Shown here piece by piece: positions 3,687 to 64,000 of a stretch of 64,000 bases of DNA. Source of the DNA: Peribolospora baueri (Eukaryota > Basidiomycota > Peribolosporomycetes > Peribolosporales > Peribolosporaceae); NCBI GenBank assembly GCA_029717555.1, contig JAMDHS010000062.1, positions 62,001-126,000 on the forward strand. Reading direction: 5' to 3'. The notes beneath the pieces are model-generated. The model saw nothing but the letters and a program-made list of their open reading frames with translations. It searched no databases and was not told the origin of the DNA. Both the position numbers and the translations under genes were made by a program. Position 1 is the first letter of the stretch. Every line of letters begins with the position of its first letter.

Positions 3687-5266
3687 CTAATGCATGTACC
3701 CTCCCAACGGCTGCTGCTTTGCGGCAGCGGCGGCGGCAGCTGCCGCGTGCGCCTGAGCCTGCTGGTGAGCGGCAACGGCCTGGGCGTGCGCGGCAGCGGC
3801 TTGTTGCTGCTGTTGCTGTTGCTGCTGCTGCTGCTGAGCTGCAGCTGCCGCCACTGCTGTCGGGTTGAGCTGAGCCTGCCCGTGGTGCTGATGCTGGGGA
3901 TGAGGGTGGGCGTGAGGCTGAGCAGGTTGGACCGCTGCGGGGGTGGTGAAATACGGGTGGCGAAGTGCCTCTTCAGCCGTGATTCGTTGGGTGGGGTCGA
4001 ATTTCAAGAGCTTCTCTAGAAGGTCGATGGCTGCCGGTTAGGGGGAGTCGGTGCGACGGTGGAACGGTGAGATGGGGTTAAGGAGGCGAATTCGACAAAG
4101 AGCGTTTCGAGTTCAGAGCAGAGAGGAAATGAGATGAGCAAGACGTTATCAACAAGAACACAGAGCAAGCATGTTGACTGCTTGCTCAGAGCCCCTTTCG
4201 CAAACTCACCGAGGGGGTGCGCTTTCGGGAAGATTTGCTGGAAAGGAATCTTTGGCATTCGCGCGAATGGCCGGAGCTGAATTTCGGGCTGTCATGGCGG
4301 ATTTCGGAAATGCAGGTTGTGTCAGAGGCCGGCTAACGTCCCAATCGACCGCGGCGGCGACCACTTCGCGTCGGTGGCGTTCCTCCTCGTCCCTGCACAC
4401 TCACCGAGTCATTCGTCAGTTTTCGCAACGTTGCCTCATCCGGGGTGCCAAGGATGCGCAAGATCTGGTTGAGCTGGTCGTTGTTGTCCCGACCACGGAA
4501 GAGAGGCACGCCGCTGATCATCTCGGCCATGATGCACCCAGCGCTCCATACGTCAATGCTGGTGCTGTATGTCCTGCTTCCGAGCAAAACATCAGGGGCG
4601 CGGTACCAGAGCGTGACGACCTCGTTGCTGAACGTGTTGACGGGGATGCCGAAGGCGCGAGCGAGGCCAAAGTCGGCGAGCTTGAGCTCCCCTCGCTTGT
4701 TGATGAGCAAGTTCTGGGGCTTGAGGTCGCGGTGGAGGATGCGGTTCTCGTGGCAAAAGGCGGTGCCCTTGAGAAGCTGGTACATGAAGGATCTGACGGT
4801 GATAGGGTCGAGTGCGCCGCGGTCTCCGTGGATGTCCATGTACTTCTTGAGGTCCTGCTCCATGTACTCGAAGACGAGCATGAGCTTGGACTCTGTGTGA
4901 ATGACGTCGTGAAGCCGCACGATGTTCTGATGTCGGAGCTCCTTCATGAGCGAGATCTCGCGGATGGCCGTCGATGGGGTGCCCTCCTCCGAGTCGAGGT
5001 GGATCTCTTTGAGCGCGACGATCTCATTCGTGATGCGGCTTCGACCCTGGAGACGAAGGGAGACGGTTCGTGATGAGTCAAGACGCCCCCGGCGGTTCTT
5101 CCCCAGGCATTGCTTTGCCTGCTCCTCTCCCTGACATCTCCCTCCGGCTCCTTCGTCGCCCCTGCCCTCTCCTCTCCGTGTTTCCGACCCGTCGGGCAGT
5201 CGCTCTCACCTTGAAGACCGTCGCGTAGGTGCCCTCGCCGAGCTTCTCGAGTTGGGTATAATTCAT
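3687..5266 (-). CDS. PHO85: PHO85-type cyclin-dependent kinase with Q/A/H-rich tail
   Basis: Ser/Thr kinase that in yeasts partners Pcl/Pho80 cyclins to control phosphate response, polarity and metabolism. Exons on the - strand: 5266..5210, 5046..4405, 4288..4210, 4030..3687; phases agree and give 373 residues. Visible: Gly-loop [10 protein letters not shown] (10-19), the cyclin-binding helix PSTAIRE (43-49), catalytic [11 protein letters not shown], and T-loop [30 protein letters not shown] is a Pho85/Cdk5 signature not found in Cdc28. The kinase ends near [18 protein letters not shown]. About 90 further residues are a Q-, A- and H-rich low-complexity tail including a run of 12 glutamines, far longer than the yeast protein's end. 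Divergent from UTP5, 394 bp apart. Confidence 0.95.
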
Positions 5267-5660
5267 GGCGAGCTGACCGTCCGTCTCAGTCCTCCTTGAG
5301 GGGCTCGAGAAGAAAAGAGGGGGGGAGGGAGGAAGAAAGGATGAGACGAAGAGGACGAGCGACGAGGATGGGTGTGATTTCCGCCGACTTCTCTCCACCA
5401 CAACGTTCCACCCCGTCCGTGCATTCCAGACGCAGCTGCTCCGACTGCGGCTCAACACCACGTGGACGACCTCGCACAACAAAGCCCATCCACGTGGCCG
5501 TGGGAAACAGAGACCGGCCGCAGCTTTTGCGTGAGGCTCTTCTTGAGCGAGCAGCGCGAAGAACGGTCGGGATGGAGAGAGGAAAGCTGAGCAGAGCAGA
5601 GCAAACGGTCGACGTCGACTTGTCTTCGCCCGTCCTCACCATCTCTACTCGCCGCCCACC
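5267..5660. promoter_or_regulatory. Shared promoter of PHO85 (-) and UTP5 (+)
   Basis: 394 bp between two divergent start codons, so both promoters and 5' UTRs must lie here. C/T-rich on the side reading into UTP5. I see no clear TATA box. Confidence 0.55.
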
Positions 5661-8600
5661 ATGGCCCCCAAGCGAGGTCATTCTCAGAAGCACAACACCC
5701 GCCCGGCGGCCACGTCCTCCTTCTCTGCCGCCTCCAATCCCGCCGCATCTGCGTCCACCTCCAACATCCTCTCCGCCTACTCGCCCTCGGCCGCCCTCTT
5801 CGCCCTCGTCACTCTCGCCGTGGATAAGCACCGCGTACGTATATATGACTCTTCTGCTCTATCTGGAGCGTCATCGGCGGCCGGAAGCGGTACGCTTGGT
5901 CAGGCCGTCGCCGACTATGTGATTCCGGACGCGAGATGCGCCTCCCTCGCTTGGGGCTCGTACCCGTCCGCCACGAGCACCCCGACCGAGACGCCTAATT
6001 CGAAGAAACGCAAGAAGGACGGAAAGGAAGCAGCTGCTCCCAAGGCTTCTTCCAGCGCTTCCTCCCCCGCTGTGCCTGTTCTCGCCCTCGGCTTGTCCAA
6101 TGGCTCAGTTCACCTCTTCTCGCCTTCCCACGGCCGCGTGCTCCGAGTGCTGGGTCATCCCAGTGCGACGACTCCCGTCACCGGCGTCGCTTTCTCCGAC
6201 GAGCATGTACCGGGAGCCGCCAAGGTGTGGACAAGCAGCGAGGACGGCGTCGTGCGGTCGTGGTCGCTTGGAACGCACAGGAGCGACGAGCCGGAGGTGG
6301 TACACCGGCATAAGCCGGATGACCGAACGTCCGTGCGGACGCTCTCTTTAAGGCCATGCGCCGACCCTTCGACGACGACGACGACGACCCAGTTGCTTGC
6401 GGCACATCACTCTATCAAGCTGCTCTCCTTTTCCTCCGCATCGGCAGCACCGCGTACGCTAGCTACTTTCACGGGACACGCTTCTCCTCTCACTCGAATG
6501 GTGTGGCTTCCTCCCGCACCCGGCTCTACCAAGCCCACACGATTCGTCTCAGCAGCAGAAGGGGATCGAGTGGCCTATCTTTGGGAAATTCCTTCAGTCT
6601 CGGACGAGGACAAGGACGAATCCGGCGTCAAATCGGTGGTTCGAGAAGGCAGGACGATCGCCAACATCCCGGCCGACGCCGAGATCCGTCACTTGGCAGT
6701 CGCTCCTTCTCCATCGGCAGGCGGGGCAGAGACTTTGCTCGTGCTCACGCAAGAAGGCGACGTCTCCCTCTTTGCTCTACCTTTGTACAGCGACATGACT
6801 GCGTCGTCGACTAAGACCTCGAGTCCGAAGAAGAAGTCAGCCATTCCGACGCTCAAGGCTGCCTCTTCTCTCAAACTCTCCCTCGTCTCTTCCTCCTCTT
6901 CTCCCTCCAAGCAGAAGAAAGGGTCGGACGTCGTCACCTCGACAGCGAATGATGTTGCCGACACAATCGTCTTGGACGCGACGTTTACATCCCAGTCTGG
7001 CACCGGAGACTCAAATCAGCTGCAGCGTCTCGCTTTTGTGCGGCTCGTTCGAGGTGCAAAGCCCGTGTTCGAAAGTGTTGCCTTCCGGGACGCTGAGACC
7101 GGCGCCTATGTGCCTTCTATCGATGTGACGAGGAGGAAGATGGGGGGAGGTGTGTTGGTTGATACGGGTGATGAGGACTCGTTGGGAGACGTGAGTGGTT
7201 TTGGCTTGCCCTATTCCTCGTTCGGTCTTCCCTCTATCCTGAAACACGAACTCGCCTTTTTTCACTGATTGTTCTCACAACAGGCCGCGAAACTCCAGCG
7301 GTACAGCGAGCCGGCCAAGTCTTCCGTACGAACCGGCCTCGATGTCTCTTCGGCAGCGGCGTTCAAAGGCGACGGCGCAGTGTTTGACGACGCTGACCTC
7401 GCCGCTGCGATGGGCGGTGCGGAGGAGCAGGCGGAGCTGGATCCGAACGACCTGGACTCGACGGAGCCTACGCTCGCGCAGAGGCTCAGAGGCCTCGCTG
7501 TCCAGCATGGCGAGGGTAAAAAAGGGGCGAGCGAAGACAGTGGAGAGGGAGAAGAGGATGATGAAAGGGAAGGAGACGAGGATACGTCAGGTAGACGGAG
7601 AAGACGTCACTCATCCTCAGCCATCGCCCCCGCCCCCACGGCTTCATTGGCCCACACGCTCACCCAAGCCCTCCACTCTGGCGACTCTACGCTCCTCTCT
7701 AGCTGCCTCGTCCATTCGGAGCCCTCGCTAGTTCGCAACACCGTCAAGCGCCTCCCTGGTCCGCTGGTCGTGAGGCTCTTGGAGGCTTGCGTGGAGAGGA
7801 TGTCGCACGGGGGCGTGAAGAGCAAAGGTGCTTTGGGCACGGGCAGGGCGAGGGGCTTGATAGAGTGGGTGAGACAGTGCTTGGTATGTCATACTGGCTA
7901 TCTTATGACTGTGAGTAGCGGGAATTTGCTCGAGCTTTCGCGGCCTCGTCGCAACCGGATGAACTCCGAAGTTTTGACCGTCTTTCCCTACGACCTTGCA
8001 GCTGCCCAGCCTTGTCACCCGCCTCTCCCACCTCCACACGGCCCTCTCATCGCGCCTATCGACTCACGACCGCCTTCTTTCTCTCAATGGCCGACTCGAG
8101 CTCGTTCTCTCCCAGATCGACCTCCGATCTCACTACGCTCCCAGCCTCGGTGGTGCGCAGGTCAGCGCATCGCTGCGGTCTGGTGGTGGCAGGGCCGCCA
8201 GGCGGAGGAAGGGTAAGGCTGCCGCCGGTGGTGGTGGTAATGAAGGATTGGAGGGGCCAGGGCCGGCAAAATACGTAGAGGGGGAGAGCTCAAGCAGTGA
8301 GAGCGAAGGGGACATGGAGGTGGATGGCGAAGGGGAGGGTATGGATGTTGAGGATGCGAGCGAGACGGGTAGCATTGAGGATGTGGCTTTGGGCGGGGAT
8401 GAAGAGGAGGACGAGGAGGATGTAGATTTGGATTTGGAGGATGAGGAGGACGATGAAGGTGAGCTGAATGGAGTCTGGTCGGCCGTGTTCTTTTTTTTCT
8501 CTTTGGTCCTCTTTCCTCCTCTCTTCTGGATAATAACTGATCATCGGACGGCCATCGTCTCTCTCTGTCTCTCTGACTCTCCCGCCCATGTCGCATCGCC

Positions 8601-23380: not shown

Positions 23381-25037
23381 TCACCCGAGCCCCCTCCTAC
23401 CGAGCCCTTCCACCAAGTAGGAGAGCACGCTACCCAGCCTTGCCTCCCACGTCTCGTCCTGCTGCCCGTCCTTGTTGGCCGAACCCCGTCGCTTCGGACC
23501 GATGAACTTGAGACGTGCTCCGCCAGCGGTCGACGTGGCGGAAGAGGAGCCGAGGTAGACTCCTGCGACGCCTAGACGGACGAGCGTGAGTCGCGACAAG
23601 GGCAGAGAGGCGTGTTGGGAGAGGTAGAACGTCAGCGCGGGTAGGAGGGGCATGTCTACGTGAATGGCCCGGGAATGCAGACAGATATGGAGGCCAGAGG
23701 CGTGTGCGTGTGTGAGAGGAACGAAGGGTCAGGAGAGCTCGTCTAAAACGTTCGCCGACGAAAATTCATCCGAGTGACGTCTCGGCGCCCCACTCACCCT
23801 GGGTGACCCCCCTTGGCTCCAACAGCTTCGCCACCATCTCCCACGGTACGCTGAAGGTGAGCGCCTGCAAATCAGGCGCCACCGTCCGCTCGGGCTCCTC
23901 CGGGTCGTCCGTACCACCCCTCTTGCCCGGAAAGGCGTACGCGAGTTCCACCGGCGGCCTCACATTCGCACTCGTCGATGCCGCTCCCGTCTCTTCTGGC
24001 CTCAATGATCCGTCAGGGCCTCTCATACCGTCAACGGTGCGCTCCAGAAGCCCCTCGAGGAATCGGCCGCTTATGCGCGTGCCCAAAGCTGCCGCCGAGC
24101 CGACTCTGCAGTCGAACCGGCTCTGCACCCAGTCGAGGGCGTGTGCAAGAGCCGAGGGGCCCATGGGCGACGAGGAGGCTGCCTTGGTGATGAGGAGAGG
24201 GTAGGAAAGCGAGGAATTGTTGGAGCGGGTGTGACGCGAGTCAAAAGGAGCCTCGTCGCTGCGGTCGAGAGAGGGTAGAAAAATGAGATGACACATGTCG
24301 TCTTGTGATCTCGGCGGGGGCGACGAGGCAGAGGTAGGCTCTGCCGGGGAGCCCATCTCGAGCTCGATGGCCCATGGGGGAGGCCGCCGCGGCGATGGCG
24401 TTTGTCCGCGCCTGGTGGAAGAAGCGCCACCTTGGGGACTGCGCCCCGGTGAGACAGAAGCGTCGTCATCGTTGCCGTCGAGCTGGAGGTCCAACATGCG
24501 CATCTCCACCCTCCCAACCCTATCCATCGCCACTCTGCGTCTCTTCCTGCTCCGACCGCTGCCCGACTCCGCCTCGACGCCGTTCCCGTTCGCGTGCGCA
24601 TTGTCCTCTGGACCAGCATAGCTCAGCCCGTCTGAAAGTCGCAGGTTTACAAACGAGTGTAGTTCTGGAGCAAGGGACCGGAGGAGTGAGGTGGTGACGT
24701 TCGTCACGGCCGGCGCTTTGGACGACGAGGAGGAGGAGGCGGCGGCGGCGGCTGCGGGGGGGATGTGCAGGTGGATGGGAGAGAGCGTTTGGAGGTGCAA
24801 CGTGCGATTGAGAAGAAGGTCTGTAATGTTGTTCCGAATCACCAAGTCAGTTCACCTGCACGTCTCCTCGCTCCTCGTCTGCTGAGACCTTCACGCACCG
24901 GTCGCTTTCCAAGCTACCTCCTCTTCCTCGTCCTCTTCTTCCCGCCGCTGGCCTTCCTGGTCTACTAGCTTCGCTTTTCCTTTGTCCCTGCTCCGTGGAG
25001 GGGGGTTCCGAGGCTGTTTTGACGTTTTCGCCGGCAT
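23381..25037 (-). CDS. Candidate CENP-L/Fta1 (Iml3) kinetochore protein
   Basis: Exons on the - strand 25037..24899, 24820..23798, 23655..23381; phases agree, 478 residues. The first exon is basic then acidic. Exon 2 starts DLLLNRTLHLQTLSPIHLH, which resembles the 'NTTWTLHRLSPLHHF' opening of Fta1/CENP-L; later LDWVQSRFDCRVGSAAA resembles that family's 'L..FD.R(V/I)' block; then LTFSVPWEMVAKLLEPRG and a last exon LTFYLSQHASLPLSRLTLV followed by RLKFIGPKR. Between them is a Ser/Pro-rich insert with RSRKRRR. CENP-L pairs with CENP-N in the inner kinetochore (CCAN). The match is by motif memory and spacing, not alignment, so the gene is solid but the name tentative. Confidence 0.5.
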
Positions 25038-43910: not shown

Positions 43911-46077
43911 CTATCCCTGCCTCGCTTGCTTTTGTGACCCAGGGCCGCCGTCCCCACCTGCTATGCTCGTAAAGTCGGTCGGCCTAGCGCGCTTCAAGTT
44001 GCCTCGCTTTCGAGGGTTGACGGGCAAGCGCACGTATGGGGAGTCCTCCCCCACGGGGACCTGCGGAGGCGTCCAGTTCGTCCTCCGGTACTCCGGCATC
44101 GGAGGAGGCGCCCCGTTCATCGCGTTCACCGCGTTCATCGCGTTCATCCCCATAGGCATCCCCATGCCCATACCCATCTGCGGCATCGGCATCGGCATCG
44201 GCATCGGCATCGACATCGGCATCGGCATGCCCATCTGCGGCATTTGCATTCCCATCCCCCGGCCCACCTGCTGCATCTGCATCCACAAAGCCTGCACTTG
44301 CATCTGGATCTGCATCTTCATCGGAGGCGGCACGGTAGGGTTCTGAAGAGCCATCATCATCTGCGACATCTGCATCTGCATTTGAGCGACCTGAGGATTG
44401 AAGTTTCCGCCGCCACTGCTGCCTGGTGGTTGAGGTTGTTGCTGCTGCTGCAAGGGCGGTGGCAGTTGCTATAAAATGAATCAGATAGGACCGAGGGTGC
44501 AATTCGGGCGACAGATAAGTCTCTCGATACGCTTGTTACGTCGAAGGTTTACGTGAAGGCATCCATGTGGGCACGTGTACCCACCTCATCAGTCTCATTA
44601 TCCCTCGCTTCTGCTTCGACCTTCTCAGTCTTCTCCTCCGAGCCTTCCTCAATCTCCTTCTCCTTCCCGCTCTCCTTCTCTTTCTCTTTCTCTTTTCCCT
44701 TCTCCTCCTCCTCTTCTGACTCTGCCTCCTCGACTTCCTTGCTCTTCTCAATCTCCCGCTCGATGTATTCCTCGATCCGCTCCCTCTTCTCCTCATCCGG
44801 TATCAGCCTATCTAGCTCCTCAACGCGCTTCTCGCACTCCGGACAGACGAAGTCGTGTTCGAGGAGGTACGTCTGAATGCATTCCTCACAGTACGTCGTA
44901 CCGCAGCATGGCGTCTTGGTCGCTTCGCGCGCTAGCTTTCCGCACAGCGGGCAGGCAAGGTCCGATTCGCTCGGCGCGAGTTGATACACCTCAGCTCGCG
45001 TTAGAGCCTTGGCGGCCGCTGCAGCGCGCGACCTGTTCCTCTCCCACGACGCCGAGTCTGGCTGAGCGATCACATAACTGCCGTCAGGGGTGACCATGAC
45101 GCCAGAGGGAGGTTTCGCTGCATCCGAAGAACCAGAAGAAGGCTGCTCGACCTGCTTGAGGAAACTCCGTGGGATGCCAGTCGTGCGCTTGATCCTCGGC
45201 CGATTATCGAACTCCTCGTTATCGTTGGTCGGGCATTGCTGGATCCAATGGCCCTTTTGGCCACAACGGTAGCAGATGTACCCTGGAGGTGGCGGCCGAT
45301 CGGGCACTGGCGGCCCAGACGGCCCAGGTCTTCGACCCATGTTTCGGGGAGCACCGCCACGAAAGACGGGAGTAACGCTGCAATTCCGGGGGACGTGCAT
45401 TAGCAAAACTAGACGTATCGAATTCCTCCGCATTCACAACTCACTGTGCCATTCTCTCCTGTGTCTGGTTCCACTGATCCGTCGTCGCTTGGAACATGGC
45501 CGCTATCCGAGAAGCCTCGTCGCCACCTGATGCTGTGGAACGCAAAGTCTCTTCGACCGGTGCTTTGGTCGACGCAACCGCTGACGGGGTAGCCACGTAG
45601 CTTTGAGCCATCGGCCTCGAATTGGAGGATGACGCGCTGCCCGTTGCCGGGCTGGCCACCGCTTCTGCCCCGGCCAGTGCAGCAGCAACATAGTTCTGCG
45701 CGGTACCCCGTCCAAAGCCTCTCGCTGGCGGTAATCGACGCACGAGCACCGAGGTGGAGCGGGGTACGACGAAGTTGTCGTCTTTGTACTCTGAAAGGCG
45801 GAAGGAGGGCGGCGGAACTACTCGTAAAACTAGTTTACAGGCATGGCTGATCTGACGTGCAACGTTGACGAACAAACGGAGCGCCAAAGGCATTTCGCTC
45901 ACCTTCTTCGCTGCTGGCATCGTAAATCTTGATGTCAAAGTCAGTTCCCTTCCCCATCTTGTTAGAAAGGATGATCTCTTTCTTGAGATCCCACACAGAG
46001 ATACCGGTGCCATCGAACCTGATGCGCGTGGGCTCCTTCTGTGAGCTGAAGCGATAATAAACTGATGATTGAGCCAT
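43911..46077 (-). CDS. MPE1: Cleavage/polyadenylation factor subunit MPE1 (RBBP6 type)
   Basis: RING-type subunit of the cleavage and polyadenylation factor, acting in mRNA 3'-end formation. Exons on the - strand 46077..45903, 45790..45445, 45377..44585, 44468..43911; phases close, 623 residues. The N-terminal DWNN ubiquitin-like domain (1-75) shows YYRFSSQKEP, ISVWDLKKEII and the end VVPRSTSVLVRRLP. A CCHC knuckle CYRCGQKGHWIQQCP starts at C209. The RING-like domain (about 320-370) has CPLCGKLAREATKTPCCG, YCEECIQ and CPECEKR. Then a highly charged Glu/Lys region and a Gln/Met/Pro-rich tail (MQMQMSQMMMALQNP, repeated MPMP) close to 180 residues long, ending with basic GNLKRARP. Starts 161 bp from RAD14 on the other strand. 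Confidence 0.95.
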
Positions 46078-52267: not shown

Positions 52268-55200
52268 ATGTCCCCATCCGACCTTTCTTCCCGCACGTTT
52301 TCCGTTCTCCCCACCCCTTCCCATTCCGGCACGAACGCGGCGGTGGGAAGGACGAACCGTGTCCTCGTTCCTGTGGAAGTGCTCAAGGCTGCGAGGATAG
52401 CTGCTGGGGATTGTATCGTTTTGAGACCTGTGGGGGACGCTGGTGGAGAGAAGGTGAGTATACGCATGGAGGGTCGGCCTGACTGGGAGGTGACGATGTA
52501 AGAAGGAGCACATGTGAGAAGAGCAAGCGAGTAGGCGCGGCCCAGTTGCCGCCGTCGCTGTGCTGTGGGCGGACTATGTGTGCCTGGAAGGGACGAGGTT
52601 GAACGAAAGAAAGTCTTAGTTCCGGAGCGCCCTTTCATCCTTTGCACCGTCCGTCTCTCAATGTCCAGGCGAATGAAGAGACGGCTTTGGATCTTGTTGC
52701 AGGTGTTGCCTGGCCATCGTTCGTAGCGGACCCTGAGAGTGAGTGTCCGCGTCTTTGTCGTTTCAACACTTCAAGGACCGAAAATGTTCATCCCGTTCTA
52801 CTTTACTCCTTCAACCGCTTAGGCATTCTCATTCCCAATATACTTCTCCATTCATCCACACTGTCGTACGGCGACCTCGTTCGCATCGAGCCCAAACCTG
52901 TGTTCCATGGTGTCTCAGATGAAATCGTTGTGGCAGTGTCCCCAGCGAGGCCTGGATCTTCTCAGGGGAAGCGGGAGCCCAAGGAGATTGAGACCGAGGA
53001 GAGAGAGTTGCTCGGGATCTACGTTAAGGAGGTGCTGCGTGAGTCGTTTGCCATTTGGACCACAGGTGGTTCGCTTCGATAAGAAATAGGTTGACGTTGC
53101 CGGTTTGATTGCGTGCAGTCGATCTCTGCTATGTGAGGGAGGGACAGTGTTTGCAGCTAAAGTTCCGCGGAGCGACGCTGCAATTACGACTCTCCGCCGT
53201 GTCGGCATCTTCGTCGAAGTCCAGTGCCCCAGATCCTGTACCTTCACAACAACACTGTTTCTTCTCCGTAGTCCGGTCCACGCGGATATCGCTGGCGAAA
53301 TCTCCGAATCACGACATCTCCTCTTCTTTGTCAGATGCAACGACTAATTCACAACAAGGCGCGACAACCGAGGAAAAGAGCAGGCGGGCAGTTGAGGCGT
53401 ATGGGCAAGTTGGCGGCCTGGACAAGCAGATAGAGGACCTTCGGAGCCTGGTTGAGATGCCTCTGATGCAGCCAGGAATCTTTACCCATCTCGGTGTGTG
53501 CGCATTTTCTTCCTCGAAAAGAAAACCAACAGCTGAAAAGCTCTACGATTTATATTTCAGGCCTCAAGCCCCCTAAAGGCGTACTCCTTTACGGCCCTCC
53601 GGGAACGGGGAAAACTCTTCTAGCCCGCGCTGTAGCTGCCTCGACTGGCTCCTCAGTTCTCGTGATCAACGGACCCGAGCTCTCATCCGCCTACCACGGA
53701 GAGACGGAATCCAAGCTCCGACAAGCGTTCGCCGAAGCCAAACGCCGTAGTCCTTGCGTCATCGTCATGGATGAAATCGACGCTCTGGCTCCTAAGCGAG
53801 ACGGAGGTGATGGTGGAGCGGGAGAGGTGGAGAGGAGAGTGGTAGCGACACTGTTGACTTGTATGGACGGAATGGAGAGTCAGGAAACGGAAGACGACGA
53901 GGATGCGGAGGGGTCAGACACGGGTCGCACGCCACCACGGGTAGTCATCGTGGCGGCTACAAACCGGCCTAACGCTATCGATCCGGCCCTTCGACGACCT
54001 GGCAGGCTGGATAGGGAGATCGAGATTGGCATTCCCGACGTCTCTGCTCGTTTATCCATACTCAATGTTCTGCTTGCCAAGATGCCTCACACGCTCTCAG
54101 AGGATGACCTCGCTGCCGTCGCTAACAAGACACATGGGTACGTGGGGGCGGACCTGTCTGCGCTCGTACGGGAAGCAGGAATGCTCGCCATCCGCCGTTC
54201 GCTCGAACAAGGGCCAGGAGGACTGGAAGCAAGTTTGGCTGCTTTATCTTTGGACGGCGAACCGTCCTCGATACCAGGCGGTGCGGTCGGAGCGAAAGCC
54301 ATGCGCCTTCGGCCGGACGATCTCCTGAACGCCCTGCCCACCGTACGCCCCTCGGCAATGCGAGAGGTGTTCATCGAGTCACCCCAAGTCTACTGGAAGG
54401 ACATTGGAGGCCAGGGTGAGGTACATCAGCGCATCAAGGAAAGCATCGAGTGGCCCTTGCGACACCCCGAGACGTTTGCCAGGTTGGGCATCACTCCGCC
54501 TCGCGGCGTACTGCTCTATGGCCCTCCTGGGTGTAGCAAGACGTTGACGGCGAAAGCGCTGGCTACAGAGAGTAGCCTGAATTTCATCGCCATCAAGGGC
54601 CCGGAGGTGAGCTCACTCTGGGCCAGTCCAAAAGTGTGGGGGAACTGGTGGCGACGTATCTGGCTGACTCTTCGTTCTGTGTGGCTTTACACTTCGCAGC
54701 TGTTCAATAAATACGTTGGCGAGTCGGAACGTGCCGTTAGGGAGGTGTTCCGAAAAGCCCGCGCCGCTGCGCCTTCCATCGTCTTTTTCGTAAGTGCGGC
54801 TGGCCTTACGAGCTTTAATTTCCCTGAAGCCTTTCGCCCTCATATCGGCTTTTAATCTCACCTACCTCGAGTGTTCGTATACTCGCCTCTCTTGCCCATC
54901 AGGACGAGATCGACGCTCTGACCATTGCTCGCGGTGGCGCCAACGGCGAAAGCGGAGGCTCTTCCGGCGACCGCGTCATCGCGAGCTTGCTCAACGAGAT
55001 GGACGGCATAGAAGCTTTGAACAATGTCATCATCGTTGCAGCGACGAATCGTCCGGACGTGATTGTGAGTGGTGCGAGAGTGCTTGTGCCCATCGTAGAT
55101 GTCAATGGCTGACGATACATGCGATTTGCATGTCTATGACGGAACAGGACCCTGCTCTCCTCCGCCCAGGGCGGCTCGATCGGCTTCTATACGTGGGCCC

Positions 55201-56313: not shown

Positions 56314-58883
56314 ATGTATTACAGCAACGACCGCAAATCCGCCAGCGGGCTCGACCCCATCGAGCCCGACAACCTCCGCGCCCAACATGGCGCCCAATCT
56401 GACCAGCGCCACGTTTCCGTGCCCGCGCCAGGGGAGGACGCCCAGGCAGGCGTCAAAGCCGTCGAGGCGACACAGCAGCTCTGGGGCACGAAGAGGAGCG
56501 CACACTGGTGGACCTTGTACCTTAGGTGAGCGCTGGAAATCCTGCATCCACGCTCACTAGTCTAGCCCCTTGCTCACCGCCTCTTTTTGACCGCTCCTAC
56601 TGCTCGTAATGCGTTCAGCATCGCCCTCGTCGCCTATGTCGCCTCACTGGACGGCAATACCTCCTACGTATACCTCAATTCGGCAGCCTCGGCCTATTCC
56701 AAGCTTGGACTATACAGCACCATTTCCATTGTCCAGCAGATGATCATCGCCGTCGCGAAGCCGTGAGTGTCGCATGGCACGTGTTTTCTTGCCCTTAATG
56801 GTTACTCTACGGCCCGCAGACCGGTCAATTTAATCTCTATGGCTCTCTATTTTGCTTATCCGATGCCCCTCTTCAACAGACCCATTGCCAAAATTTCCGA
56901 CGTCTTTGGCCGGCCAGCAGCCTATCTCACCTCGGTGCTCTTCTACGTCCTCGGCTACATCATCATGGCGGCCTCTCACAACCTCAACACCCTCGCCGGT
57001 GGTGTTGTCCTATACGCAATCGGAAACACGGGCGTCCAGATCCTTCAGCAGATCCTTGTCGCTGACACGACTACTGCCAAGTGGAGGGGGCTCACTATCG
57101 GTCTGATCAATACGCCGTATATCATCAATTTTGGCGTCGCGCCCAAGGTAGCATCTGGAATTCTGGCGAGTGGTGGATGGAGATGGGGATATGGAATGTG
57201 AGCTTCCTGCGTCTAATTGTGGCGATGGAGCACGATCTGTGGCTCAACATCAATGAAAGAGCTTACCGTGGTCGTATTTCGCCCGCTGCGCAGGATGTGC
57301 ATCCTCATTCCAGCCACGACTGGTCCGCTGATCATCGTCCTCTTCCTAGCCGAACGTCGCGCAAAGAGAGCCAACCTGCTCCCCGCCTCTCCTTATGTTG
57401 GCAATAAACCTTTTCAAATGGTTGTAGATCTGGCGAGGGAACTCGACCTCTTCGGCGTGCTCCTCCTCACGGCCGGATGGCTGCTTCTTCTCCTGCCGCT
57501 CACTTTGGTGAAAGATACGCCTAACGCGTGGAAGGCTGGTGAATTCATGGTTCAGTTACTGTAATTTTCTGTAGATTGGCCAACTCGTTTTCGCTGACCC
57601 GTCTTTACCTTACCCGTTCCACTCACGCTTCCGACCAGGACACATCATCGCCATGATCGTCGTTGGCGGCGTGTGCCTGATCGCCTTTGGTATCTGGGAG
57701 CTCTTCCCCTCCCGACCAATCATGCCGTATCAGTGCTTCAAGAATCGGGCTGTCATGGCAGCTTGCGTAAGCGGATTTTTCCAACCTCCATGCCCTCTTG
57801 ATGACCTGTATGTCGAAGACGGATGGACGCTGACATTCCTTCAATGGTCCAACTGTTTTCTTTTTCTCCCTTGTCGTGACAGGTCATCGGATTTTTCGAT
57901 TTCGCGTCTTTCTATATCTCTTGGAACTATCTCTATTCATTCGTCACCGTCTCTCGAGGATGGAGCGTCAGTGACGCCACGTACTTCTCGTTGAGTCTCT
58001 CTTCCACTTTCTACTGACATTTTTGTCTTTCTAGCCAGGATCCTTACGCTGTTCCTCTTGCGCCGCGCCTCGACGGGGTGCCGACTTGTCGATGGGGCTT
58101 CGATGTCGTAGGTCCACTCAGAGCGTCACGTCCACAGTCTTCGGCACACTCGTCGGTGGACTGATGGCATGGACACGCCACTACAAGTACTTCCTTGTCG
58201 GTGGCGTGGTCGTTCGTCTCCTCGGTGTTGGTTTGAGTGCGTAGTCACCTTCTTGCCTAGGTCTACGGAATCCTTATTGTTGGCTTCGCGCGTCGGTCGC
58301 TTATCTCGTCCCTATCTTTCTACCCGTGTCCCTTTTTTCAGTGATCCGCTTCCGCACGCCGACCGACCCGACGGTAGCCTTGGTCTGGTGTCAGCTTCTC
58401 CAAGGCATCGGAGGCGGCCTCATCTCCATCACCATCCAGACGTCAGCACAAGTGTGCGTTCGACACGGCGATGTGGCCGTCGTCACCGCGCTCGTCCTCC
58501 TTCTCACCGAGATCGGCGGCGCGGTCGGATCGGCCATCGCAGGCGCCATGTACACCCAGATCCTGCCCAACAAGCTGGAGCAATATCTCCCCCAACTCAC
58601 CCCGGCTCAACGCGGTCAGATCTATGCCGGTCTGGACAACGTGGCCAACTACCCGATCGGAGACCCTGTCCGCGAGGGTATAGCGGCAGCTTGGGGAGAC
58701 ACGATGCGCAGGTTGACCATCGCCGCCACTGCCATCCTCACTCCCGCTTTGATCGTTGCCTTCTTCACCTACGATCGCCGTCTGTCGGACGCCCAGAACG
58801 TGGTGGAGGAGGACGACGACTCGTCGACAGGCGCCGAAAAGGAGGAGGCCGTAGTCGCGCACGACGGCTTTCGCGCTGCGTAA
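56314..58883 (+). CDS. MFS transporter, siderophore-iron (ARN/SIT) type
   Basis: Plasma-membrane or vesicle H+ symporter family that takes up ferri-siderophores in fungi. Eight exons: 56314..56525, 56619..56762, 56880..57197, 57294..57538, 57639..57766, 57883..57989, 58112..58236, 58342..58883; phases close, 606 residues. A hydrophilic N-terminus is followed by about 14 helices: IALVAYVASLDGNTSYVYLN, PIAKISDVFGRPAAYL (the MFS loop 2-3 motif), TSVLFYVLGYIIMAAS, KWRGLTIGLINTPYIINFG, GWRWGYGMMCILIPATTG. VSRGWSVSDATYFSSTQSV and QLLQGIGGGLISITIQTSAQ are characteristic of SIT transporters. The large loop before the last helix (NKLEQYLPQLTPAQRGQIYA) is also typical. Intron 6 uses a weak GTTGAG donor but restores YFSSTQSVTSTVFG exactly. 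Substrate is inferred from family only. Confidence 0.88.
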
Positions 58884-60048
58884 GTGGCATGGCATGGCAT
58901 GTCCTCTCTGGACCCGAATCGTTACAAATGTGCACACGCCCGGCCGCGGACTGTTCGAAAACTTGGCGCCGAAGCTCGTCTCCGTCTGCGTTTCTTCTTT
59001 CGCCGTCGTTAGTCCCATTGCGAACACAAACGAATGGTGGGCCTGCCACGAACCCTAGATTTACACTGCCTACGGCTGGAAGGAGTGCTCTTACGTCATA
59101 ACCTCCCAAGAGAGGCGAAAGGTACATCCATGGCAAGCGTGCGGCGAAGGGTTTACGGGGCATCTTGGCCAGCGATGATGATGAGCCTCGACACATGTTT
59201 TATCACACCGGGTAGAATTGCGAATGCGGTTTTATGCGGGCGCCCAAGCCATACGCGCACAGACATGAACGGCAAGCGAACTACGGACGCAGCCACTCCT
59301 CTCGATCGTCTGTCTGTCTTCCTCGGCAGGACGAGGGCCATCGACTGATCGTCGGCAGGGCGACGCGCACAAGTGCCGAGTGCGACCGCGAAAGACAACG
59401 GCGAGAGAGGGCGAGGGAAGAGCGAGGCGGACGTCAAGAAATGGGCGCCGCCGCTCCACCGTCCTTTCCTCTCGTCCATGAGCGCCTGTGCACGGGCCAC
59501 CCTCGCGTCGCCGTCGCCGCAGTCGATCCCGGGCGGCATCTCCGACGCCGTTGCCATTGCCGTCACCGTCGCTCGCCATCGCCATCGCCATCGCCGCCGG
59601 TGCCGCAGTCGATCTTGAGCGAGCCTCGCACAAGCCGGTCGTGACACGGAGTGTCGTCGATGGTCGCCGACGATCGATGGATGGTCATCTCTCTTCTCCT
59701 TCACCTCGGCTTGATCGACCGTCCGCCTCCGCCTGCGGTGGTGTCCCTCTTTTCTTCCCCCTTTCTGCCCTGCTTCTCTCACTTCCGCGCGCCCTCTTGA
59801 CCCTTCAAACCACCACTCGACCGCGCGCTCGCCATCGATCTCGGCCGACATCACCTTCACCCGCCCTATATCGCCGCACCGCACTTTCCATGTTCCCACC
59901 ACCCTCGCCGACGACGCTCACCGGCACTCCCACTTCTCCTTCCTAGGCACGACCTCCCACCCACCGTCCGCCCACTCTGGCCCCCGCCACCGGCCGCCCG
60001 CCGCTCGCCAGTCCCCCTCCTCCCGCACCTTGCGTCCCTCGGCCTGTC
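58884..60048. promoter_or_regulatory. Long upstream region of the FRQ-like gene with GATCGA hexamers
   Basis: 1.17 kb without an accepted gene. GATCGA or its complement TCGATC occurs at 59302, 59523, 59609, 59672, 59713 and 59835. GATCGA-type cores are what White Collar complexes bind in Neurospora light-response elements. There are also GCCATC repeats at about 59575-59600 and a C-rich stretch near 59940-60030. Confidence 0.45.
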
Positions 60049-63000
60049 ATGGAGCCGTTGTCTGGACCTGTCCGTCCACGGGCTGGGGGCCAGCACCGTC
60101 AACAACAGCTATGTGGCACCCCCGGACCGACAGAGGAACAACGGGCTCCTGATCACTCTTCTCCTCCTTCTCGTACCCGCCGCTTATCTCCCTCCGGCAC
60201 CTCCGGCAGCAGCTCCTCAGCAGCGCATAAAAAGCAGAAGCATCCGTTTCCGACGCCTCGTCTTCCCCCGCATCCCGACCGCGCCATTCTCTCCCCCCCG
60301 GATTTCACTCCACGCCAGCGCGCTGACCGGTTCCCCGTCCCCCCACCGCCCGTTTACCCGCTCGACCCTTTTCGCAACGACAGCGGTGGTGCCGGCGGTG
60401 ACGATGGAGAGGCGCCCATCGCCTGGCGCGCACAGCCCTTCCCCCTGCTCCGACCCGGGCGTCCCAGTTGGCCAGGCGTCCATCCCGAATCCCATCGCGC
60501 CCTCTACCACCTCTCCACCTTTTTCTCCTCTCATCAGCAGCACCAGCGCAGCCAGAGCTCGAACGCCGACGTCGATGTCGACTTCTCCTCCAACGGCGAT
60601 AACCCCCGCAACGCACAGCTTCGCTCCCGCTCCCCCACAAGGAGCAACGGTCTCAGCAGCGCCTCCCTCGCACCCAGTCAGAGCGCCAGCCAGTTCGCCC
60701 AAAAGGTGGCTGACCGAGACGGGGATCGAGATCAAGGTCGAGAGTCCGTCGACGAGCGGAACGCCGATCGTGGGCCTTCCGTCCCGTACACGGGCCGGGC
60801 GCCTTTCAGACGCCTATTGCCTAGCGGATCTTCTTCTCAACTGTCGTCTTTCCGGACCTCTCCTTTGGGAAGGGGAGCGGAAGGGGCAGAAGCGGAAGCG
60901 GGAGGAGAGGGGGGAGCGGGAGTAGGAGCAGGAGACTCTTACTCCCATGGAGAGCGTGGCCGAGTGGCGACGACGGTGGACTCGCGCGACGACGACGACG
61001 ATGACGACGACGACAAGGACTCGAGGCTGAACGACTTCATCGACCTCGTCGACGAGCTGACCGTCAAGAACCGCCAGCTCAAGAACCGCATCCGCGCGCT
61101 CAACGTCCCCGCCGATGCCCGGCCTGATCCGAGTCCATACCCGCTCTCCTCTCCGTCTCACTCCCCAGCGCTCTCCTGCAAGGCCGTCTCCGTTAGCAGC
61201 GGCGGGTCCGCCGGCGCGGGCCCTCATCGGCGCGCCTTCCCGGTGAACACGTCGCGCGACGAGGTGCGCATGTCAGATGCCTGTCCCGCACTCTTCGAGC
61301 TTCGCTACCATCCTTCCATGCAGCCGGACGACCGGAGGGAGCTTGAGGATGTTCTCACCGGCTGGATCAAGACGCGCGCGGATAAGCGCAATGGTCGCGT
61401 CCAGGAGTCTTTCGGCGCCCTTGCTGAGGTACCCCAGCGGAACCTCGTTTGCCAGAGGGAGCCTTTCGTCCATGCGGCGGAGAAGGAGCAGCGGCAGCGA
61501 CCGCAGCAGCAACGGCAGTACCTCCAAGGCCAGGGTCGTCTGCATCAGAGCCAGACGACCGACAACCGCCAGGTGGACGTCCCGTATAGCGCCGACCGTG
61601 GTCTCGATGTTCAGCGCATCTTCGCTCCCGCCGACTCCAACGTCAGCTCGGCCCAAGGTCTCTCATTCGGACTCTTCTCCGGCCTCGGCCTCGACGGACA
61701 AGTGTGCTTGGGCTCGGGCTCATCAGTACTGGAAAGCAACGCCAACTCCAACTTTAATGCCAACACCACGTCCACCGGCGCTGCCACCACCGCCACCGCG
61801 AGCTCCGGCATGGTATCCACTTCCGCCGCGGTGAGCCTTCTCTTCGAGTCCCCGCCGCCACCGCCCAACTACCGTCACGTGCCCCCCTCCTCAGCGGCGA
61901 CGCGCATGGACGCTCGCCGGCCCCTCTCCGCCGCGTTCGACTCGGATCCCGACGTGGTGACTACCGTCACGCCACTTGCAACCGTCGTGACGCCCAACGA
62001 CGGCTCGTCCGGTTCCGGCAACTCGGCTAAGCGTCAGGGCGCCGATGGGGTCAGCTTGGGGCGGGAGAAAGGGACGATTGCCAAGGCGTTGGAGATGGAG
62101 AGGGAGAAGAAGGCGGAGAAGGGCAAGGTGGCAAACGTCGACGAGGCCGTTCAGCTTGAGGTCAAGCGGCGGGAGGGAGACGACGACATCGCCGTCGAGC
62201 GCGGGTTCACCTCTTTCCATACCGACGGTCCCTCCGTCGCCGTCAAAGATCCTCCTGCTCATCCCTTCTTTAAGCCCTACCAGTGCTCCATCTTCATCCC
62301 CCCTCCCACCTTTCCCCCCTCCCTCAATGCGTCCGACTCGCTTTCGTCCTCCGAGTCCTCGCCCAAGTCGTCCGAACTCAGCAGCTGCTCAGTGGAGAGG
62401 AGCGGCGGATCGATTGGGAAGGAGCGGGGGACAACGTCCACCTCGAAGAAGGCGTCGTTGTCCGGCAGGTGGAGGAGGGGGAGGAAGGGGAAGAGGAGGA
62501 GGAGGGCCAGCGTCCATGCGTCCAACGCCGAAGCTCCCGTCGTCTTCTACGAGGGCGGGCGCTTCTGCACCGACCTTAGCAAAGACATCCTCTGCCCCGT
62601 CGTCGAGTCCCTTCCCGCCGAGGGCATGGCCGCCACCGCCGCCGCCTTCGATCCGCCGCAGAGCGCCGAGGAGCTCGATCACCACATCCTCGGCGCCGCC
62701 GCCGCTCCCGCCACGCTCCGCAACGGACGGAAGGAGTCTGGCTTCTTCGTGAGGCTCCACGACCGTAGGCTCGCGTTCGAGACTGGGGGAGATGGCGAAG
62801 CTGTCGGCATGCCTCTGGACGCGGGGGAGGAAGAGCGATTTCCATCGACCGACGTCGAGGACGCTTCTCACGCGATCCTCGCCACGCCGCCGCCGCCGCC
62901 GGAGATGGCAGAAACGGACTCGGCCAAGAGCAGCTCGTCGAAGCGGTTCAATACGAGGAAGGAGATGGGCAAGAGTAAGTCCCGCTCGTCGGCGGACATG

Positions 63001-64000
63001 CCTGTCAGCAAGAATGCAAAATCATCCGTCGGGAGGTCCCCTTTGACCGGTGGTAGGCTGGCCACGAACACGGAGGCGGACGGGAGGATGCCGTCGGTGT
63101 TTAGCGACGCACTCGGAGGGACGCTCGCCGAGCGCATCGACACGGCCAACAGGCTGTTGGAGGATCAGGTAAAACGGCGAGAGGAGGAGAAGGAGAGGGA
63201 GCGCATCCGCGCCTGCCTCTTCGCCGAGGCCAGTGAGGCAGTCCCGCCGGACGGCTTCGACCAGCTGCCCCTCACGCCCGCGACCGCCGGGCCCGTATTT
63301 GCCCACTTCTTCAACCAGCCCCGCATGGAACGGACCGACACCACCCAGGTCTGCCCGCCCTCCGTCGCCGCGGTCAAGTCCGTGTCCCTCGGGGACGATG
63401 TGGAGAGCGAAAGAGACGCCGCCACAGACGAGCCACTCGTCGTGCGCGGCTCGGACGTGACGCGGGCGAGGATAGCGCCGCCGCCGGTGAACCCGATCAC
63501 CGCGTTTATCAACGCGCCCGTTGCCGGCCGCCGCTGCCGGCCCTTCCCGACGCCCAAGACGCCGCGTGCTCGGGAGTCGTTCAATCTCACCCACGACGTC
63601 CGGCAGGGCGACGCGTTCGCGATCGACGTCAGGATCGAGCATGAGGACGACGAGGCGCACTTCAAAGGTGCCGATTTTGTAAACTTTGACGTGGCCGGCT
63701 CGGATTTTGACGCCGACGAGGACGACGAGGCTCCGCCTATCGGCATCAAGCGACCCGCTCGGAGCAGCTCCGGCTCGGCCGGACCATCGAAACGGTGCCG
63801 GACCGGTAGCAGTCTCGCTTGGCCCTCCGCTTCGAGTCGCGTCCCGTCCTCTCAGCTTTGCATCTCGGCCGGTCGGATCGGGACCACGGGTGTGTCGCCT
63901 CTTCCGGGGTCGAAAGAGAGGGGCCCGCGTCAGAAGGCGGGGGCGAAGAAGTACAATATTGTCTCCGAGCGCGTCGTCAAGTTGCCCCTCGTCCAACCGT
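60049..64000 (+). CDS. FRQ: FREQUENCY-like circadian clock protein (3' end outside window)
   Basis: Intronless frame open from ATG 60049 to the window end, at least 1,317 codons. Disordered Ser/Pro/Arg N-terminus (RRLSPSGTSGSSSSAA), a nine-residue Asp run (about 315-323), then DFIDLVDELTVKNRQLKNRI (332-351), matching FRQ's coiled coil 'VIDDLTVENKRLK'. At 415 LFELRYHP...RRELEDVL matches 'LFEVKVHG...KRELE.TL', at the usual distance. At about 833 VVFYEGGRFCTDLSKD matches FRQ 'IVYYTGAPFCTDLSGD'. Between them REGDDDIAVERGF may correspond to the region before the FRH-binding part. Several Lys/Arg-rich patches (GRKGKRRRR) could be nuclear signals. FRQ is the negative element of the fungal clock, binding FRH and CK1. 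It is longer than Neurospora FRQ (989 aa). Evidence is ordered short motifs in a disordered protein, so an alignment is needed. Confidence 0.65.
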   Translation, partial: MEPLSGPVRPRAGGQHRQQQLCGTPGPTEEQRAPDHSSPPSRTRRLSPSGTSGSSSSAAHKKQKHPFPTPRLPPHPDRAILSPPDFTPRQRADRFPVPPPPVYPLDPFRNDSGGAGGDDGEAPIAWRAQPFPLLRPGRPSWPGVHPESHRALYHLSTFFSSHQQHQRSQSSNADVDVDFSSNGDNPRNAQLRSRSPTRSNGLSSASLAPSQSASQFAQKVADRDGDRDQGRESVDERNADRGPSVPYTGRAPFRRLLPSGSSSQLSSFRTSPLGRGAEGAEAEAGGEGGAGVGAGDSYSHGERGRVATTVDSRDDDDDDDDDKDSRLNDFIDLVDELTVKNRQLKNRIRALNVPADARPDPSPYPLSSPSHSPALSCKAVSVSSGGSAGAGPHRRAFPVNTSRDEVRMSDACPALFELRYHPSMQPDDRRELEDVLTGWIKTRADKRNGRVQESFGALAEVPQRNLVCQREPFVHAAEKEQRQRPQQQRQYLQGQGRLHQSQTTDNRQVDVPYSADRGLDVQRIFAPADSNVSSAQGLSFGLFSGLGLDGQVCLGSGSSVLESNANSNFNANTTSTGAATTATASSGMVSTSAAVSLLFESPPPPPNYRHVPPSSAATRMDARRPLSAAFDSDPDVVTTVTPLATVVTPNDGSSGSGNSAKRQGADGVSLGREKGTIAKALEMEREKKAEKGKVANVDEAVQLEVKRREGDDDIAVERGFTSFHTDGPSVAVKDPPAHPFFKPYQCSIFIPPPTFPPSLNASDSLSSSESSPKSSELSSCSVERSGGSIGKERGTTSTSKKASLSGRWRRGRKGKRRRRASVHASNAEAPVVFYEGGRFCTDLSKDILCPVVESLPAEGMAATAAAFDPPQSAEELDHHILGAAAAPATLRNGRKESGFFVRLHDRRLAFETGGDGEAVGMPLDAGEEERFPSTDVEDASHAILATPPPPPEMAETDSAKSSSSKRFNTRKEMGKSKSRSSADMPVSKNAKSSVGRSPLTGGRLATNTEADGRMPSVFSDALGGTLAERIDTANRLLEDQVKRREEEKERERIRACLFAEASEAVPPDGFDQLPLTPATAGPVFAHFFNQPRMERTDTTQVCPPSVAAVKSVSLGDDVESERDAATDEPLVVRGSDVTRARIAPPPVNPITAFINAPVAGRRCRPFPTPKTPRARESFNLTHDVRQGDAFAIDVRIEHEDDEAHFKGADFVNFDVAGSDFDADEDDEAPPIGIKRPARSSSGSAGPSKRCRTGSSLAWPSASSRVPSSQLCISAGRIGTTGVSPLPGSKERGPRQKAGAKKYNIVSERVVKLPLVQP

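Follow-up and report, generated by a model that had tools for sequence, protein, structure and literature searches.

A 64,000-nucleotide stretch of the Peribolospora baueri genome (contig JAMDHS010000062.1, positions 62,001 to 126,000 of the forward strand; hereafter the window) ends within a long open reading frame (ORF) that we read as a strongly diverged homolog of the Neurospora clock protein FREQUENCY (FRQ) in a basidiomycete, probably controlled by the White Collar complex (WCC) and acting by the mechanism proposed below. We place the probability of this combined reading at roughly 72%, and FRQ homology alone, judged from sequence comparison, is likelier than the reading that includes the mode of action. 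Three FRQ-like islands, a cluster of WCC motifs in the promoter and the partner genes are observed here; expression of the candidate, its dimerization, WCC binding, repression and rhythm would follow by analogy with Neurospora.

FRQ homology is supported because the islands are collinear with a significant joint score, WCC motifs cluster upstream and the partner genes are present. On these three grounds the initial annotation, which had named the ORF an FRQ homolog, holds up; it falls short in that neither the Pfam FRQ family PF09421 nor the segments that dock CK1 and FRH are recognizable. The candidate shares with Neurospora FRQ the succession of coiled coil, putative LFE/RRELE helix, basic patch and FCTDLS island, the high disorder and Ser/Thr content, the equivalent of D660 and the upstream GATCGA sites. 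It differs in its length (1347 residues vs 989), its longer spacers, a score below the Pfam cut-off, and the lack of recognizable FCD1, FCD2 and FFD. Its kind is known and its form unusual; it is a good clock candidate.

The genome searched was the organism's own assembly (22.1 Mb in 178 contigs), in which the window corresponds to C137:62001-126000. As a control, the Neurospora FRQ query gave 1337 bits against PF09421.

FRQ-like islands in a long disordered frame

The three islands picked by the initial annotation were scored by BLOSUM62 local alignment to Neurospora FRQ against a background of 20,000 shuffles. All three motifs are found in the order and at the places first reported (VDELTVKNRQLKN at 61048, LFEL at 61291, RRELEDVL at 61333 and FCTDLS at 62563). 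The N-terminal coiled coil, placed as in FRQ, scored 57, and the FCTDLS island, which carries the D660 equivalent, scored 59; neither value was reached by any shuffle. Heptad a and d residues of the zipper are L, F, V, L, N, L, I and L, with Asn at an a position. Summed over the collinear islands the score is 152, above a shuffle maximum of 115. Real sequence gave the same picture at two levels: when 1009 stop-to-stop ORFs with a minimum length of 80 amino acids (aa), drawn from 16 sources in this genome (145,861 bases), were scored together with the candidate frame as one of them, that frame ranked first and the runner-up had 92, and none of 3000 stretches of 1347 aa assembled from joined local ORFs without FCTDLS reached 152 (maximum 103). 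Per 1347 aa, extrapolated Gumbel fits come to between about 4e-6 and 8e-6 for the zipper and between 6e-7 and 6e-6 for FCTDLS, with the middle island at 0.03 to 0.06. When FRQ was scanned in 45-aa windows, those holding the zipper and FCTDLS came out as the top two (z 7.0 and 6.9). By these comparisons, the three-island likeness to FRQ is more than chance.

In Neurospora, D660 is essential for recruitment of the WCC, with D660E failing as well, and deletion of FRQ residues 149-193 or 647-690 abolishes rhythm (PMC10320511). The sequence of NLS3 in Neurospora FRQ is RRKRR (PMC12796302), and a basic patch occupies the corresponding relative place in the candidate (Table 1).

The frame is open on the forward strand from 60049 to 63999, which amounts to 1317 codons at the window edge, and its first in-frame stop is a TGA at L001:5090-5092, 92 bases past the window (locus frame L001 covers the ORF end, L001:5092 being contig position 126092). 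The predicted minimum of 1,317 residues was borne out by following the sequence beyond 64000, where the frame continues to 1347 codons; the contig stops 1.7 kb after the TGA. In a genome search with the candidate protein, in which 8 candidates were scored, the sole match at E 1 was the protein itself. Its composition resembles that of FRQ in hydropathy (GRAVY −0.74 vs −0.91) and in Ser+Thr (16.7% vs 19.1%), and 71% of its residues are disorder-promoting (69% in FRQ), in agreement with the earlier description of the sequence around the motifs as disordered. GC content at third codon positions (GC3) peaks in the candidate's frame across most of the ORF.

At the 3′ end the picture is more complex. 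Codon statistics trained on the ORF favor the ORF frame as far as roughly L001:5050, apart from a drop over 4751-4900. Coding bias carries on past the TGA, in the +2 frame over L001:5051-5275 and in the ORF frame again over 5201-5875, where the stretch L001:5351-5575 shows weak ORF-frame bias and reverse frames that score equal or nearly so. This bias could stem from a 3′ intron, from an error in the assembly or from decay. By eye, a putative intron across the TGA would be some 36 or 53 bases long, with one CTRAY branch site, a CAG acceptor and poor donors. Two C-terminal likenesses were rejected: that of the ORF end (KYNIVSERVVKLPL) to the FRH-binding segment of FRQ, for which the best alignment lies elsewhere and 215 of 2000 shuffles reach the score, and that of a stretch downstream of the ORF to FRQ QFRRLNPAPLPPP, which 80 of 2000 shuffles reach. 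The biased stretch L001:5051-5875, outside the window, finishes in an acidic run. Near the contig end, also beyond the window, there is a perfect 47-nt inverted repeat (L001:6352-6398/6537-6583) with 138 nt between its arms.

The description of the ORF as intronless is correct for the frame shown, and its absence of introns, presented as striking, is not unusual here because other long stop-to-stop frames exist: GATA matches sit in such frames of 862, 934, 969 and 1728 aa. The CK1 stretch contains two short introns.

GATCGA cluster and White Collar partners

GATCGA is the WCC consensus from chromatin immunoprecipitation sequencing (PMC3210137, PMC7493669), and a UVE1 promoter piece of the basidiomycete C. 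neoformans that holds TCGATC, its reverse complement, was used with recombinant Bwc2 in a gel-shift whose heading states that Bwc2 binds the piece (PMC3764193). The motif was chosen after the protein had already been judged FRQ-like, and the motifs tried were one single and one paired. Six GATCGA sites fall within 750 bases before the ATG. With 6 sites per 600 bp, this cluster tops all 1508 overlapping 600-bp bins covering 161,902 bases (the window and 20 fetched loci), the next separate place holding 4; that runner-up lies at L030:8601-9400 (C134), with 4 sites in 600 bp. When the 1-kb upstream region was dinucleotide-shuffled 2000 times, six sites were reached once, and among 180 permuted hexamers the next upstream count is 3. 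Over the whole window the motif is not enriched (55 matches at 51 distinct places, 62 expected).

FRH, WC-1, WC-2 and CK1, which the initial annotation had proposed to look for, were all found in the genome. WC-1, on C93, has a LOV domain 53% identical to that of Neurospora, retains the LOV cysteine (GKGCRFLQ), and carries PAS_9 followed by PAS_3 and PAS_11. No zinc finger was detected on it: none of the 14 GATA matches in the genome lies on C93, and a simple Cys4 pattern is missing from the WC-1 strand within 8 kb, a search that an intron-split finger could escape. Several basidiomycete WC-1 proteins likewise have no GATA domain (PMC12262267). WC-2, on C130, combines PAS_3 and a GATA finger within a single 862-aa frame. 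The Mtr4/FRH ortholog is on C65, where one piece matches yeast DOB1 at 417 bits and Neurospora FRH at 369; a second DSHCT gene, on C134, is Ski2-like. CK1, on C95, has three exons that are 80 to 88% identical. That the host is a basidiomycete, as first proposed, is backed by this WC-1 without a detected zinc finger and by its thymidylate synthase, whose closest PDB chain is 2aaz, which we take to be from Cryptococcus neoformans (293.9 vs 250.4 and 229.2 vs 156.7 bits for two pieces).

Other loci resemble parts of this partner set. A zinc finger on C159 (L028:4595-4681), the second of the TPEWRRGP type, was considered as WC-2 and rejected, the better fit being the C130 gene, whose PAS_3 and GATA share one frame. 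Three adjoining C159 frames were scanned without any Pfam match, and searching the genome for PAS_3 lists nothing on that contig. WC-1 has a partial duplicate on C89 (L034:2900-3508 vs L033:3861-4733 on C93; blocks of 318 and 298 nt, 98% identical), which is without the stretch between its two blocks and whose LOV match ends early (query 1-81 of 126). A third LOV-type PAS protein (GRSCRLLQ) occupies a 205-aa frame at L035:3916-4530 (C130:118952-119230) and is 47% identical to the WC-1 LOV; by eye, frames upstream of it resemble RGS, and a scan of one of them gave no Pfam match.

In the mode of action that we propose, the WCC, comprising a WC-1 with LOV and PAS domains and no detected zinc finger and making DNA contact through WC-2, would bind the GATCGA cluster and switch the candidate gene on, either in light or under the clock. 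The product, a disordered protein, would dimerize via the leucine zipper and may enter the nucleus through the basic patch. Its FCTDLS island would then contact the WCC, delivering kinases that silence it.

Family models, docking segments and alternative readings

A number of results weigh against an FRQ that works in this way, beginning with the family model itself, the check proposed by the initial annotation and the one that went against it. The 1317-aa protein gave nothing against PF09421 at E 10, and of ten fragments two touched the model, both below the gathering cut-off of 26.6 bits. The better one, an FCTDLS fragment among five shorter ones, reached 11 bits (E 0.11) at profile positions 640-656, the place of FCTDLS; the other (L001:3257-3640) aligned to profile 596-656 at 5.5 bits (E 5.1). 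No PF09421 match came from two longer FCTDLS-bearing fragments. Five control pieces of Neurospora FRQ scored 21 to 69 bits; the model therefore works and the candidate falls short. Within the islands, the LFE/RRELE score of 36 is reached by 731 of 20,000 shuffles, weak taken alone though right in order, and a degenerate FCTDLS pattern by itself is not rare (2 genome matches vs 3 for the reversed control). Third place in the 45-aa scan goes to a non-collinear Pro-rich N-terminal match (z 5.6), which is also the top piece in pairwise BLASTP with FRQ, so composition alone can yield scores of such size. Whole Neurospora FRQ searched against the genome did not list the candidate ORF and gave one match elsewhere (C147, E 0.044). 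Codon bias for the candidate frame is slight over roughly the first 100 codons and over codons 241-300. Upstream, other hexamers are enriched alongside GATCGA (ATCGAC 7.1-fold, GATCGA 7.0, CCATCG 5.8), and the paired motif GATNC-CGATN (same N, gap of at most 60) is absent from the 1.5 kb before the gene. Such GATNC/CGATN pairs do occur in a run at window positions 44136-44214, mostly in 6-nt steps, which is probably a simple repeat.

Some of this would also suit an unrelated disordered Ser/Arg/Asp-rich nuclear leucine-zipper protein whose likeness to FRQ is convergent or fortuitous. Pfam does not call FRQ, whole FRQ misses the candidate in the genome, the FCTDLS pattern alone is no rarer than its control, and zippers look alike, the FRQ and candidate zipper pieces both touching IFP_35_N weakly. 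We regard such a protein as quite improbable, given that two islands each lie above all 20,000 shuffles with their order kept and the third between them, that the runner-up among 1009 ORFs stops at 92 vs 152, and that a GATCGA cluster stands upstream. TMEM171, IFP_35_N and BrkDBD are the other weak Pfam names that came up, the PDB search with the 1317-aa part had no match at E 1, and no relative was confirmed in viral_contigs or genome_contigs. A PF09421 family search of the genome gave 0 candidates and is uninformative, as 14 control genomes likewise gave zero.

The docking segments bear on how a homolog would function. CK1 binding requires FCD1 (319-326) and FCD2 (488-495) (PMC6761100), and the FFD is located around 774-776 (PMC12796302). 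Compared by sequence only, the FCD1 and FCD2 helices had no significant match in the candidate (windows at z 2.4 or below), nor did the FFD and C-terminal FRQ segments, for which two frames were compared at the C-terminus. Against the genome, the FCD2 region gave an empty result in a search run without a positive control, and the FFD gave one match, elsewhere, at E 0.306. These segments also count against the proposed mechanism, although short docking helices in a disordered protein may persist unseen, and the FCD/FFD result is therefore a failure to detect. Filing the candidate as a PF09421 member is unwarranted because the family-model and docking-segment tests failed; it may still act like FRQ despite this. 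A reduced FRQ that kept dimerization and WCC contact, with CK1 and FRH docking lost or replaced beyond recognition, is an unlikely variant. If true, it would mean that light or clock feedback in a basidiomycete relies on a WC-1 lacking the zinc finger and on an FRQ complex that is wired differently.

The same unrecognizable docking segments, together with the coding bias that shifts frame past the stop, would also suit an FRQ descendant without clock function, either in decay at the 3′ end or retained to regulate light responses or development. There is a precedent in V. dahliae, where frq is present yet not rhythmic (PMC7493669). We hold loss of the clock to be unlikely, since the ORF runs for 1347 codons without a stop with GC3 highest in frame over most of its length, and the promoter keeps its GATCGA cluster; the odds are not exclusive, homology and WCC control being shared with the clock-active FRQ that we favor.

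FRQ in Basidiomycota

This clock candidate is not a first, because FRQ has already been reported from Basidiomycota: Brody 2019 found it in Basidiomycota, Zoopagomycota and Mucoromycotina according to PMC7013081, and PMC9508176 and PMC10381341 agree that it extends beyond Ascomycota to Basidiomycota as well. The proteins of PMC9508176 lie outside Ascomycota like the candidate and possibly belong to the same group. The opposing view is that FRQ is observed in Ascomycota only (PMC11105155), and an older account gives a narrower distribution (PMC4592989); the excerpts of PMC8175908 and PMC5414199 contain nothing on a basidiomycete frq. Among the matches listed, in literature that leaves most subscription journals outside its coverage, there was no functional study of a basidiomycete FRQ. 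Basidiomycete clock parts are little known and papers disagree on FRQ in the phylum, and surveys such as PMC11105155 that rely on Pfam scores for FRQ may overlook diverged FRQs. With a single-copy candidate, a promoter rich in WCC motifs and a full set of partners, the FRQ question becomes testable in one species.

Table 1. Features of the candidate FRQ locus in window coordinates.
Feature	Position	Strand	Basis or remark
FRQ-like ORF	60049..64000, on to contig 126092 (1347 aa)	+	only copy detected in genome
Six GATCGA, putative WCC-bound light-response elements	59302, 59523, 59609, 59672, 59713, 59835 (span 59302..59840)	both	motif count
Island 1, leucine zipper/coiled coil, aa 325-349 = FRQ 146-170 (dimerization)	61021..61095	+	alignment and heptads
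Island 2, LFELRYH...RRELEDVL, aa 415-445 = FRQ 185-214	61291..61383	+	weak alone
Basic patch, aa 811-821, immediately ahead of island 3; relative position like that of NLS3 in Neurospora	62479..62511	+	alignment
Island 3, EAPVVFYEGGRFCTDLSKD, aa 828-846 = FRQ 646-664; D842 = D660	62530..62586	+	alignment

Elsewhere in the window, a scan of nine other frames gave Pfam matches to ribosomal protein L6 (1674-2819), CENP-L (23766-24851) and an AAA ATPase (53467-54855), and a match to MFS_1 below the cut-off (58326-58883).

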